Shown one piece after another: positions 49,641-54,135 of a stretch of DNA of 64,000 nucleotides. The translations under genes and the position numbers were made by a program. The notes under the pieces are model-generated. The model had not been told where the DNA came from. It saw only the letters and a list, made by a program, of their open reading frames with translations, and ran no database searches. Each line of letters begins with the position of its first letter. The first letter of the stretch is position 1. Where the stretch lies: NCBI GenBank assembly GCA_002700385.1, contig PADC01000008.1, positions 226,485 through 290,484 on the forward strand, given 5' to 3'. The stretch is from Cycloclasticus sp. (GTDB lineage Bacteria; Pseudomonadota; Gammaproteobacteria; Methylococcales; Cycloclasticaceae).

Positions 49641-50561
49641 ATGAGTATTAACTGGTACCCAGGGCACATGCATAAAGCCCAAAAGGAGATCAAAAAAAGA
49701 CTTCCTGACGTTGATATGTTTATAGAAGTTCTGGATGCAAGAATTCCCTACAGCAGTGAAAATCCCATGTTAGCAACCATACGTGGTGATAAACCCTGTA
49801 TAAAAATTCTTAACAAAACTGACCTAGCCGAACCCGAGATAACAAAAGATTGGCAAAATTATTTAGAAAAAAACAAGCACACAAAAACACTGGCTCTCAA
49901 TTTAAATCAGCCAAATAAACGTGAACAAATATTTTCATTATGTAAGAAACTAGTACCCAGCAAAGGGACAAAAATTTCGCCCATCACCTGTCTCATTACC
50001 GGTATTCCCAATGTTGGAAAATCAACCCTGATCAATACATTGGCTAATAGAACGATTGCCAAAACGGGCAATGAACCCGCAGTGACACAAACACAGCAGC
50101 GCATTGACTTGGGCAATAACCTAATTTTATTCGATACCCCGGGTTTGCTATGGCCAAAAGTAGACAATGAAGACAGCGGATACCGTTTAGCCATGACAGG
50201 TGCAATAAAAGATACCGCCATAGAATACGATGATATTGCTTACTATGCAGCAGAATATTATTTAAATGAGCACCCAAATTTACTAATGAAGAGGTACGAT
50301 CTTGAAGAACCACCCTTGGATGAAACCACACTACTTGAAGCTCTTGGCAAAAAGCGCGGCGCCTTAATCAGTGGCGGGCGCGTTGACCTGAAAAAAGCAT
50401 CGACCATTTTTATTCATGATTTCAGAAGCGGCTCACTGGGCCAAATCACGCTTGAAACCCCTCAACGGGTTGAAAGAGAAATCGCTAAAACAGAAAAATT
50501 AATGGCCGAAAAAGCCGCCTTGAAAGAACAGCGAAAGAAAAAATGGAGAAATAATAAATAG
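49641..50561 (+). CDS. ribosome biogenesis GTPase (RbgA/YlqF type)
   Basis: 306 aa circularly permuted GTPase: the G4 motif NKTDLA (about residue 57) comes before G1 GIPNVGKSTLIN (about 121) and G3 DTPGLLWP. It starts with the diagnostic INWYPGHMHKAQKEI. In B. subtilis RbgA matures the 50S subunit. Follows deaD and slyX, another ribosome-linked set, on the same strand. Basic C-terminal tail. Confidence 0.92.
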   Translation: MSINWYPGHMHKAQKEIKKRLPDVDMFIEVLDARIPYSSENPMLATIRGDKPCIKILNKTDLAEPEITKDWQNYLEKNKHTKTLALNLNQPNKREQIFSLCKKLVPSKGTKISPITCLITGIPNVGKSTLINTLANRTIAKTGNEPAVTQTQQRIDLGNNLILFDTPGLLWPKVDNEDSGYRLAMTGAIKDTAIEYDDIAYYAAEYYLNEHPNLLMKRYDLEEPPLDETTLLEALGKKRGALISGGRVDLKKASTIFIHDFRSGSLGQITLETPQRVEREIAKTEKLMAEKAALKEQRKKKWRNNK

Positions 50562-50615
50562 CTCTTTATCTTTTATTTCTCCTTATCATTTTTTAACCCC
50601 CATAAAAGCAAGCGT

Positions 50616-51209
50616 TCATGCTTTATTTTTATAAAATTTAAATGCGATTAAGCCAGCCAGTATCATCAAGATCGCTATCAGTATCGCACCGCTATTTTTC
50701 TTATAAAAATTCGCACGATTAAATGCTTCATCAGCTGATACAACAAAACTAAAAGCCGCAGCAACCGGGTGATTATCTACCCGCTTATTTTCATCTGCTT
50801 CTAAACTAACAAGAACTTTATATTTCCCTTCCAAAGGTTTTAAAAAGGGAATATACATCGTACCGGTTGGATATAACTGTTCTGGAAAAGACTGAACCGT
50901 CATAAAGCCTGTCTGTTCTTCTTTCTTAATATCCACCTTAATCGGCATATTCCTAAGCTTCTCATCCACAAAGTCCAACACCAAAACCGCTTCTTCTGAG
51001 TCCGTGATTGATTTACACAGCTCCTCGGTGCCAAATAGTTCGGGTTGATACGCTGTAAAATGGAGCATATAGCCTGATAATCGAAAGGTGCAATAATCTT
51101 TCTCTATTTCAACGCCACCATGCGCTTGAACATACGAGCTTGTTATTGAAGCAGAAAGGAAAATAAAAAACAAAACCCCTTTTTTAAAGGTAAAAAAGGG
51201 GTTTCTCAT
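50616..51209 (-). CDS. periplasmic membrane-anchored accessory protein of the copper monooxygenase operon
   Basis: 197 aa. A signal peptide ends SSYVQA, so the mature protein would begin with HGG or AHGG, an N-terminal His arrangement able to bind copper. The conserved-looking stretch is KDYCTFRLSGYMLHFTAYQP followed by GTEELCKSI. A C-terminal membrane helix (GAILIAILMILAGLIAFKFY) anchors it. I associate the CxxxxxGxxxxHFTAYQPE pattern with nitrifiers and methanotrophs from memory. Likely copper handling for PmoCAB, by position (AmoD/PmoD slot). The ATG at 51209 is chosen; a TTG at 51227 would overlap pmoB. A terminator-like hairpin lies inside its first codons. Confidence 0.75.
   Translation of the reverse strand: MRNPFFTFKKGVLFFIFLSASITSSYVQAHGGVEIEKDYCTFRLSGYMLHFTAYQPELFGTEELCKSITDSEEAVLVLDFVDEKLRNMPIKVDIKKEEQTGFMTVQSFPEQLYPTGTMYIPFLKPLEGKYKVLVSLEADENKRVDNHPVAAAFSFVVSADEAFNRANFYKKNSGAILIAILMILAGLIAFKFYKNKA
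51173..51204 (-). terminator. terminator-like hairpin inside the start of the accessory gene
   Basis: AAACCCCTTTTTT (51173-51185) and AAAAAAGGGGTTT (51192-51204) are perfect 13-base arms with a 6-base loop. On the minus strand the stem is followed by a T-rich run (TTTTGTTTTTTATTTT counting from the stem end). It begins two codons into the accessory gene, 16 bases after the pmoB stop. It should end most pmoCAB transcripts while letting a fraction through. Confidence 0.7.
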
Positions 51210-51219
51210 ACGAACTAAA

Positions 51220-52512
51220 CTAGTCAACGAATGTAGGCAGTATTTGCCCAGATAATTCTGAAATCATTCTATTTCCTTCACTATCAAAGAAAAATAGCAA
51301 GGCACCGTAACTGCTTTCAGGGTCGTTCATCAGACTACTTAATCGTTCCGTTTCCCAAGCCACATCTGTCGCATTGATTTTAATTAGACGACTTTCACCT
51401 GGCTGGATCGGTGTGTTGTCTGACACTCCAAGTGATTTATCAGCGACCAATTCATCAGGGTAACCTTCATCTACTCCCTTCATTGCAAAATCAACATCAT
51501 GATTAATAAATCGGATATTTGCCGCTGTAAACTCACCAAGTTGTATAGGCAAACGAGAGTTATTCGTTATTTCAGCTTCTACGGTGACTGTTCTTCCCGG
51601 TAAGAAATATTCTGCTTTTTTGCTAATCACACCAACTGAAGCATCGTTATTTCTTTGTTTTGCTTTGACTGTTCCCAAACCATCGTTATGGACCGCTAAG
51701 GACATCAAATCAACTTTACCTGCTTGCAGCGGGATTGTTCTGGGGTATTTTTCTTTGGTGATGCTGTTTGCGTATATGAGTACGCCAATAATGAACACAA
51801 TCATGAAAGCCCCAAGGAACTTATCATTTTTTGTGATTAGCTCATTCCAACTGCCTTCTTTAACTTTCAAGAACCTGACAACTAATAGAGGACGCCTCAT
51901 CCACCAAAGTAACCAAAAAACGGCAACAGCAGCCCAAAACAGATGCCAATTAACCACGTTTTGAACAGCATAACTGCCTAGGTTATCGATCACTTGCCCT
52001 GTTCTAGTGGTCACAGAATAAACAAAGTCATCAGCCTCTCCATCAATAGTAATCCAAATCCCTGGACCCACTAGCCCACCTGCAGATTCAACATTTATCA
52101 TAGGATGAACATGATGTTTACCCGGTATTCGGGCTTTCAAAATAACCCTATATTCATAGGTATGCCCTAATTCTGCCCCGGTTGACTGAATCATAGGCAC
52201 TTCATTTAAATAACTGGCTTTTCTAATAAAAACAGGGCCGGGCGTTGCATTTGCTAAAAAAATGGTACTTGGCCCATTAATCACTTCAGGCCAGCTAGAG
52301 AAAAAATGCACTTTTCCGGTTAGTGTCACCTCATCGTTCACCTGGATCGTGCTTCCGTTTTCAACGGACCATTTTGCATCATACCAATGCAGTGTCTTCA
52401 TTCTTAAGAACGGCTCTTGGTTTCTTTCACCATGAGCAAACGCTACGCCAGTCATCACCACTAACATCATCGATAACACCAGTTTCTCGATCATTTTCGA
52501 TAACTTAAACAT
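51220..52512 (-). CDS. pmoB: membrane copper monooxygenase subunit B (PmoB/AmoB family)
   Basis: 430 aa, the periplasmic copper subunit. Signal peptide to residue 26, then HGERNQEPFLRM: mature N-terminal His27 as in PmoB. The HHVHP motif (His134, His136) supplies the other ligands of the conserved CuB-type site. Two cupredoxin domains flank two membrane helices (NWHLFWAAVAVFWLLWW, FLGAFMIVFIIGVLIYA). ATG at 52512 has GGAGG eight bases upstream and touches the pmoA stop. The substrate (methane, ammonia or short alkane) cannot be told by eye. Confidence 0.93.
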   Translation of the reverse strand: MFKLSKMIEKLVLSMMLVVMTGVAFAHGERNQEPFLRMKTLHWYDAKWSVENGSTIQVNDEVTLTGKVHFFSSWPEVINGPSTIFLANATPGPVFIRKASYLNEVPMIQSTGAELGHTYEYRVILKARIPGKHHVHPMINVESAGGLVGPGIWITIDGEADDFVYSVTTRTGQVIDNLGSYAVQNVVNWHLFWAAVAVFWLLWWMRRPLLVVRFLKVKEGSWNELITKNDKFLGAFMIVFIIGVLIYANSITKEKYPRTIPLQAGKVDLMSLAVHNDGLGTVKAKQRNNDASVGVISKKAEYFLPGRTVTVEAEITNNSRLPIQLGEFTAANIRFINHDVDFAMKGVDEGYPDELVADKSLGVSDNTPIQPGESRLIKINATDVAWETERLSSLMNDPESSYGALLFFFDSEGNRMISELSGQILPTFVD

Positions 52513-53334
52513 CTATACAGCCTCCTTAGCATTATCATCGTCTTCATCGGTGTACCCCACCATTTTTTTGAAGCGGTTAGGCACAGTGCCAAGGTTTGTA
52601 ACCCATTCACCAATTTTCCACCAAATAAAGAATAAAACCATACAAACAAAGGCGGAAAAGAACGTTGAAATAATGGTCGACTCACCACCAAATGTCCGTA
52701 ACGTTCCCCGCTCAATGATTCGTAAATATTCGGGTGTGGCGGTACGTGTAAACGTATAACCAATAAGGTCAGCGACATTCACCACCTGATCAATATGCAC
52801 CACAGGTAAATGATAAGGCGCTAAAATGGGCCAATTTGCAGGAGCAAATGCTAATGCCACCGCACTGCCACCAAAGATTGATGTCGCTATCGCATTTCTA
52901 CTGAGAAGTAGCACTAAGTCCATCAGCATTAAACCCGGTATAGCGATAGATGGCCAAATCATGCTATATGGGAAATATGTCCATAGATGGAAGCCTAATA
53001 TTCGACTGACCCATTCCCCAATAACCAAACATAATGCACACAAAGTCCCCGCAATAGGTAAACCAAATTTTTGCATAAAGGGGTAGGACAAGGCCGCAGG
53101 TATAAAAATTAACAGCATGGGTGTTAATGTGACCCAGTTTTTTCTATCTTTCCAGTCTACCCAGAAATCCCAATCGCCCACGGTTAACATAATGTGTATA
53201 TGGAATGCCGCAATAATGGCAAAAAACAGTATCAGAACAACAATCAAATCCAATTGTCGAACAATTTTAGCCGCTGAAGAACCCTTCGTCGTTATCGCAT
53301 TCAGCAGCTTTTTTTCAGGCGCAGTTAAGCTCAT
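52513..53334 (-). CDS. pmoA: membrane copper monooxygenase subunit A (PmoA/AmoA family)
   Basis: 273 aa with seven predicted membrane helices. Family signatures: GDWDFWVDWKDRKNWVTLTP, WPSIAIPGLMLMDLVLLLS, NWPILAPYHLPVVHIDQ, and GYTFTRTATPEYLRIIERGT followed by LRTFG. It is some 20 residues longer than methanotroph PmoA, with an acidic C-terminal tail (GYTDEDDDNAKEAV). AGAGGA precedes the ATG. Gene order C-A-B is that of pmo/amo operons. This is the usual phylogenetic marker and the best sequence for placing the enzyme. Confidence 0.94.
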   Translation of the reverse strand: MSLTAPEKKLLNAITTKGSSAAKIVRQLDLIVVLILFFAIIAAFHIHIMLTVGDWDFWVDWKDRKNWVTLTPMLLIFIPAALSYPFMQKFGLPIAGTLCALCLVIGEWVSRILGFHLWTYFPYSMIWPSIAIPGLMLMDLVLLLSRNAIATSIFGGSAVALAFAPANWPILAPYHLPVVHIDQVVNVADLIGYTFTRTATPEYLRIIERGTLRTFGGESTIISTFFSAFVCMVLFFIWWKIGEWVTNLGTVPNRFKKMVGYTDEDDDNAKEAV

Positions 53335-53427: not shown

Positions 53428-54135
53428 CTAGGAGGTTAACTCACCTTTCTCATCAACTACTTTAGGCATGATCACTATCATGCGTTTGACAATTTGGTGC
53501 AGCAATCCAGCTAACGCTAAGATAGACCAACCAAAAAATACGAAGCCCCAGTGTAATGGCACAGTGAAATACTCTTCCATTAACCAGAATGCATGCCCCC
53601 ATTCATTGTAACCCACTGTAGGTAACAACATAAACGGGCCACAAACAGTCAACACCAAGGGGAGAGAGATACGCTTAGCAAATACAGGCAACCGGGTGAT
53701 AGCATAAGTAAACAAACTAAACCCGATAATAATGAAAACCGGCATAGCCATGTAAAACAGGAAGATATGACTGGGTGTAAAGCTGGTGTCTCGGACAACT
53801 GTTTGATGCCATGTCGCATCTTGTTCTGCATAGAAACTACCCGCAAAATAGAAACCAAATGCGTAAACAGCCAACATGCTGACCCAATGGATCATTCGAT
53901 TCATTTCTTTTCTCGGTGTTAATTCATTGAGTTTTTTGTCTCGGGTTAGCCAAAAATAGGTGACGAAAACAAAAAACAGTATCACCTCTACAATTAATTC
54001 ACCCCAGAAAACTGTCATCCAATATTTATCAAACAGTGGGTCGGTAGAATCCAGTCCATAATCCCAAGCAGCCCATTGTTGATACCACCTTGCAATACCA
54101 AAAATTGCAATGAGTATGAACAACCCCATAAACAT
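53428..54135 (-). CDS. pmoC: membrane copper monooxygenase subunit C (PmoC/AmoC family), N-terminus apparently frameshifted
   Basis: The open frame from the ATG at 54135 is 235 aa. It keeps the metal site of PmoC: Asp106 and His110 in AEQDATWH and His123 in DTSFTPSH, plus VGYNEWGHAFWLMEE. Family members are about 260 aa and this start has no good ribosome site. Upstream in the same frame it reads KKPQKIEGWKLNLKP without a start. The real start is probably ATG 54203 behind GAGGAGG, one frame away; adding one A in the A6 run at 54175-54180 joins them, giving about 258 aa. First gene of the operon. Confidence 0.88.
   Translation of the reverse strand: MFMGLFILIAIFGIARWYQQWAAWDYGLDSTDPLFDKYWMTVFWGELIVEVILFFVFVTYFWLTRDKKLNELTPRKEMNRMIHWVSMLAVYAFGFYFAGSFYAEQDATWHQTVVRDTSFTPSHIFLFYMAMPVFIIIGFSLFTYAITRLPVFAKRISLPLVLTVCGPFMLLPTVGYNEWGHAFWLMEEYFTVPLHWGFVFFGWSILALAGLLHQIVKRMIVIMPKVVDEKGELTS

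Follow-up and report, generated by a model that had tools for sequence, protein, structure and literature searches.

Why does a copper membrane monooxygenase operon of Cycloclasticus, a marine bacterium that feeds on hydrocarbons, carry a hairpin that resembles a transcription terminator inside the first codons of one of its own genes? The operon is found on the minus strand of the window, which is the whole 64,000-nucleotide (64-kb) stretch of DNA that was analyzed. Its first three genes encode the enzyme subunits of the pmoC type (53428..54135; PF04896, E 9e-85), pmoA type (52513..53334; PF02461, E 1e-87), and pmoB type (51220..52512; Pfam PF04744, E 4e-132). The fourth gene (50616..51209, also minus strand) belongs to the pmoD family, and its ATG at 51209 lies no more than 13 nt from the pmoB stop codon (TAG, 51222-51220). 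The encoded protein consists of a signal peptide, a periplasmic domain with two conserved cysteines, and a hydrophobic segment forming a C-terminal helix; C40 and C65 are invariant between it and its relatives. It is PmoD, because its family profile matches the PmoD structure PDB 6cpd (6cpd_A, E 1.6e-18) and because it contains the CuA motif Cx7MxHxnC, here as C-TFRLSGY-M-L-H...C. This copper motif has been described for PmoD (PMC6189053), and it varies among relatives, for example as Cx8MH in L065. Downstream of pmoD, a 38-nt hairpin followed by a T-run (50545..50582, minus strand; -14.3 kcal/mol) may be the final terminator of the operon. Its stem, GGAGAAATAA...TTATTTCTCC, is followed by ATTTTTTC and overlaps the 3' end of a convergent GTPase-like gene. 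This hairpin was missed by the terminator scan, its loop or bulge exceeding the limits of the scan.

The element in question is a stem-loop of 15 bp with a 4-nt loop (51172..51205, minus strand; GAAACCCCTTTTTTACCTTTAAAAAAGGGGTTTT), which starts 14 nt past the pmoB stop codon and two codons into pmoD. The original prediction described a perfect 13-bp stem followed by a T-rich tract. Both were confirmed, and the full fold is longer by one A-U pair inside the stem and a G.U pair at its end. The hairpin alone has a folding energy of -17.2 kcal/mol and the 66-nt fold one of -17.7 kcal/mol; the latter corresponds to a z of -4.3 against dinucleotide shuffles, with none of 200 shuffles being equally stable. 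Directly 3' of the stem is the T-rich tail GTTTTTTATTTT (51160..51171, minus strand), which forms the U-tract of the transcript. The U-tract, taken as TTTTGTTTTTTATTT, has an nT of 5.06 and gives a terminator score d of 21.1, where d combines hairpin energy per length with the U-tract in the style of d'Aubenton-Carafa, using a standard formula and ViennaRNA energies. A stable hairpin with a G+C core and a U-tract immediately after the stem are features of an intrinsic terminator, and the location between the co-directional pmoCAB and pmoD is that of an internal operon terminator. Described internal terminators are intergenic, a position that is not strictly defining, and this element lies inside the pmoD reading frame. 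Moreover, the spacer of 14 nt is short enough for a ribosome at the pmoB stop codon to reach the stem, as in ribosome-mediated attenuators.

Coding sequence and terminator-like hairpin share the same bases, as was first proposed from the window, and this holds whether pmoD starts at its ATG or at an upstream TTG. Of the PmoD signal peptide, the stem codons specify the first part, including the charged n-region, and the tail codons specify Phe-Phe-Ile-Phe of the hydrophobic core. Signal peptides tolerate almost any hydrophobic sequence, which leaves room for a hairpin in these codons. The start codon of pmoD is not certain. The ATG is contained in the spacer between the pmoB stop codon and the stem (51206..51219, minus strand), which lacks a Shine-Dalgarno sequence, and the in-frame TTG at 51227 overlaps the pmoB stop codon. 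A start at the TTG that ends the stem (51173) was judged unlikely, since the signal peptide would then carry no positive charge. Among relatives, a truly intergenic hairpin combined with a misannotated start was rejected at five loci (L065, L068, L069, L070, and L071). At these loci a plausible signal peptide cannot be obtained from any in-frame ATG, GTG, or TTG downstream of the stem, so the hairpin must be translated. No in-frame ATG is present from the pmoB stop codon to the stem in L066 and L067, and therefore pmoD either overlaps pmoB or has a non-ATG start there.

Hairpins of this kind are rare in the coding sequence of the window. A coding background of 680 sense segments of 99 nt was taken from 58 ORFs of this 64-kb window only, and the segment with the hairpin was the sole one with d above 0. 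When the same protein was recoded using local codon usage, none of 400 draws reached the d of the window hairpin. The hairpin sequence is found once in the 2.5-Mb genome and is therefore not a repeat; a mobile element was likewise ruled out by the single genomic copy and by the unrelated stems in relatives.

The genus was sampled with 18 genomes containing 19 pmoB genes. Pairwise pmoB identity, rather than a tree, was used to sort these into three paralogue groups (clades A, B, and C). Group A comprises eight loci (that of the window and seven that are 64-71% identical in pmoB) and group C comprises two loci (37%). In both groups pmoD abuts pmoB, and a strong hairpin was found inside the pmoD signal-peptide codons at 8/8 group A and 2/2 group C loci; related loci are not independent observations, though sequence similarity is absent between most of the stems. 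The distance from the pmoB stop codon to the hairpin is 10-29 nt in group A and 47-49 nt in group C. Across the ten abutting loci, stem sequence is shared only between the closest pairs. For instance, the window has the arms CCCCTTTTTT/AAAAAAGGGG, L068 has CAAGGCA/TGCCTTG, and L065 has TACGGAGGCG/CGCCTTCGTA; the U-tract encodes the hydrophobic-core residues Leu-Phe-Phe-Tyr in L068 and Ile-Phe-Phe-Tyr in L065. Fold stability exceeds that of same-protein recodings at all ten loci (0-5 of 500 draws as stable). The score d does so at nine of them (at most 3 of 400 draws), with L071 being less clear (12/400). Conversely, the seven group B pmoD starts, none of which abuts pmoB, showed no significant stability excess over the recoding null.

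Two closely related pairs of loci were also compared. In group C, L081 and L082 differ by a U-A to C-G change at a single stem pair, in which both sides are altered and two amino acids replaced (Ile to Thr and Ile to Val), and another C-G pair was gained. Between L066 and L067, all 30 stem bases are identical, and 16 of 102 downstream bases differ (p = 0.02). Together with the recoding excess, this compensatory change and this stem identity indicate that the shape of the hairpin is kept while its letters are not. A comparison of relatives had been put forward as a check of the prediction, and the hairpin was indeed kept in 10/10 abutting Cycloclasticus operons while sequence and codons changed. 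The terminator score was passed by six of the ten embedded hairpins (the window and five others). The remaining four have weak U-tracts (d -1.7 to -8.5; stems -19 to -25 kcal/mol), and for this reason termination may not be a conserved function in every relative.

Further pmoD-like genes were observed in other arrangements. L108:2449-3444 (G010) contains two in tandem with no pmoCAB between them, and the second is frameshifted and retains just a weakened relic of an embedded hairpin (ACACCCC...GGGGTTTTTT). The arrangement would fit a loss of pmoCAB by deletion. Two group A operons have an extra pmoD-like gene ahead of pmoC (L110:2728-3264 and L111:4841-5377), which places pmoCAB between pmoD genes.

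Group B loci have a canonical intergenic terminator 3' of pmoB at a similar distance (d 27-71), for example GCCCCGCTTTGCGGGGC followed by T8. Where pmoD is present, it starts 106-134 nt past the pmoB stop codon behind a Shine-Dalgarno sequence (duplex -6.4 to -8.9 kcal/mol). In 6/7 cases (L072, L073, L074, L075, L078, and L080) the motif GAACTAA-N6-TATAAT lies between the pmoB terminator and pmoD, and it is likely a dedicated pmoD promoter of group B, judging by its sequence. The motif was also found in L107 and L119. It is absent from the window, where the promoter scan revealed no pmoD promoter behind pmoB. In methanotroph families, a terminator follows the pmoB stop codon by no more than about 90 nt at all 30 loci sampled (d 33-73), none of which has pmoD next to pmoB. 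In several other proteobacteria (L088, L094, L126, L127, L128, and L129) the element is intergenic, just before pmoD. With group B, the methanotrophs, and these proteobacteria all having one, a hairpin after pmoB is a common feature of such operons, and the peculiarity of groups A and C is that the pmoD frame runs through it. The embedded form is not universal, since in Bradyrhizobium pmoD abuts pmoB with no such hairpin at the junction. Free loss in homologues had been named as evidence against the prediction; within Cycloclasticus the hairpin is kept in all abutting operons, but it is absent from those of Bradyrhizobium. A single pmoD protein used as query against genome contigs gave no match, and no matches were found among viral contigs and plasmids. 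Two contigs titled as a Klebsiella pneumoniae MAG (L095 and L102) encode a pmoB-like protein and are probably mislabelled or contaminated bins.

The hairpin is probably the general intrinsic terminator found after pmoB: it would end the pmoCAB transcript, and a coupled pmoD frame without a Shine-Dalgarno sequence would extend across it, making pmoD a read-through product. Based on the terminator architecture, the shared bases, and the presence of the hairpin in 10/10 abutting operons, read-through status of pmoD is likely. In this operon lineage, the pmoD frame would have come to begin at the pmoB stop codon and hence to cross the terminator. The majority of transcripts would stop at the U-tract as pmoCAB mRNA whose 3' end is protected by the hairpin. 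Read-through would yield a minority, more readily when RNA polymerase is closely followed by a ribosome that is completing pmoB and prevents the stem from closing. With the stem directly behind a start that lacks a Shine-Dalgarno sequence, free initiation would be poor on both kinds of mRNA, and pmoD would be translated mainly by ribosomes arriving from pmoB. The net outcome would be much PmoCAB and little PmoD.

The role of the ribosome differs from that first proposed, in which a ribosome starting at 51209 would prevent folding. This is not supported by work in E. coli, where translation of an ORF lowered the efficiency of a terminator located 30 bp inside it by only about 10%, because a ribosome that has just initiated seldom catches up with RNA polymerase within the space of 100 bp (PMC4824070). 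Terminators are, on the other hand, repressed by a ribosome finishing the upstream gene if fewer than about 27-30 nt separate the stop codon from the stem (PMC4824070). Given the 14-nt spacer in the window (10-29 nt in the closest relatives), coupling would come from translation of pmoB, and the ribosome finishing pmoB, more than the one starting pmoD, should oppose termination. The group A spacers overlap in length those of the intergenic group B terminators, which counts against the terminator reading to the extent that the embedded form would not be alone in responding to pmoB ribosomes. Termination would also leave messages on which pmoD has an open start but no stop codon, a further point against this reading, since such messages come at a cost to upstream gene expression in E. 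coli (PMC4824070). Initiation on these messages would be held back in group A by the lack of a Shine-Dalgarno sequence and by a stem that closely adjoins the start. All six group A starts examined lack a Shine-Dalgarno sequence (duplex no better than -2.5 kcal/mol), and bases +4 to +18 after the start are nearly all paired in L064, L068, and L070. Group C starts have a strong Shine-Dalgarno sequence and a more distant hairpin; they do not fit the pmoB-dependent initiation step, and silencing of the start site is therefore not general. A more elaborate version is offered only tentatively. It describes a maintained, translation-gated terminator written wholly in signal-peptide codons, in which ribosomes terminating on pmoB would gate pmoD transcription co-transcriptionally and enable its start, while the hairpin-blocked start without a Shine-Dalgarno sequence would keep terminated non-stop mRNAs from trapping ribosomes.

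It is less likely, although worth weighing, that the hairpin is mainly a 3'-end stabilizer or processing boundary that shields pmoCAB mRNA from 3'-5' exonucleases and terminates only incidentally, with protection following cleavage or Rho-dependent termination further down. The hairpin is more constant than the U-tract, as the four loci with d below 0 and strong stems demonstrate, and for these four mRNA stabilization may be the main role. Outside the genus, L124 and L134 have strong pmoB-pmoD hairpins without a good U-tract (for example GGTCACGGCCGG/CCGGCCGTGACC in L134), which suggests an mRNA-protecting role and would fit it at least as well as termination. In Clostridia, termination and the stability of the upstream mRNA are both governed by internal stem-loops (PMC9045158). 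However, the window copy and five others score as full terminators, and a hairpin with a long U-tract is found at the same place in every group B and methanotroph operon sampled. The two roles are mutually compatible.

There is little to recommend a role confined to translational control of pmoD, in which the hairpin would occlude the start region until opened by ribosomes leaving pmoB. The six group A starts and the three paired start regions described above would agree with such a role, but it would make the U-tracts unnecessary. Moreover, group C genes have a good Shine-Dalgarno sequence, and their hairpin is found about 35 nt inside the coding sequence. In group B, terminators similarly spaced from pmoB are too far from pmoD initiation, about 60 nt or more downstream, to influence it. 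A chance palindrome in an A+T-rich signal-peptide coding segment is scarcely credible: although U-rich hydrophobic codons lift the background and recodings now and then come near observed scores (null maximum 20.1 against a d of 21.1 at L064), it is already contradicted by the presence of the hairpin in 10/10 abutting operons and 0/7 non-abutting pmoD genes, by the compensatory change, and by its uniqueness among the 680 segments.

Read as a terminator, the hairpin gives a testable reason for unequal amounts of three enzyme subunits and PmoD, a putative copper partner, from one operon. The same bases would serve both as a protein targeting signal and as a transcription terminator, with selection acting on shape rather than letters. 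If this is true, signal peptides would be a general site for base sharing between terminators and coding sequence, the hydrophobic core supplying the U-tract. If it is general, the starts of signal-peptide genes would be worth searching for embedded terminators, as ordinary annotation sees coding sequence only.

Terminators inside ORFs have been predicted in many genomes and tested artificially (PMC4824070). In the subset of open-access literature searched, no prior report was found of terminators at pmoB/amoB-pmoD/amoD junctions or of terminators conserved within signal-peptide codons. The homologous amoRCABD operon of Nitrosococcus oceani is drawn with terminators and weak terminators in its map, and in ammonium-induced over starved cells amoD changed 21.9-fold while amoCAB changed -1.1 to 1.4-fold (PMC3772326); no report was found of overlap of a terminator with coding sequence there. 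Ribosome-sensitive attenuators of the pyrBI type also have a terminator stem that a ribosome at a stop codon can reach (PMC4824070). Unlike these, the Cycloclasticus element has no leader peptide, no alternative antiterminator fold among the folds made, and no known signal. Plasmid W48 is similar in that an intrinsic terminator works close to where a downstream cistron begins, yielding non-stop transcripts (PMC4824070). It is an artificial construct in E. coli with a working ribosome-binding site and a terminator 30 bp inside the ORF, whereas the Cycloclasticus case is natural and, in group A, lacks a Shine-Dalgarno sequence. Internal terminators that set subunit ratios are already known; what appears new, as judged from open-access papers, is a conserved terminator in signal-peptide codons. 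The internal terminators of clostridial ABC importers are similar in having a stem-loop between high- and low-expressed operon genes, variable U-tracts, and a proposed role in stoichiometry control (PMC9045158). Those elements sit in long intergenic regions, whereas in Cycloclasticus there is almost no intergenic region and the stem and U-tract are themselves codons of the downstream gene.
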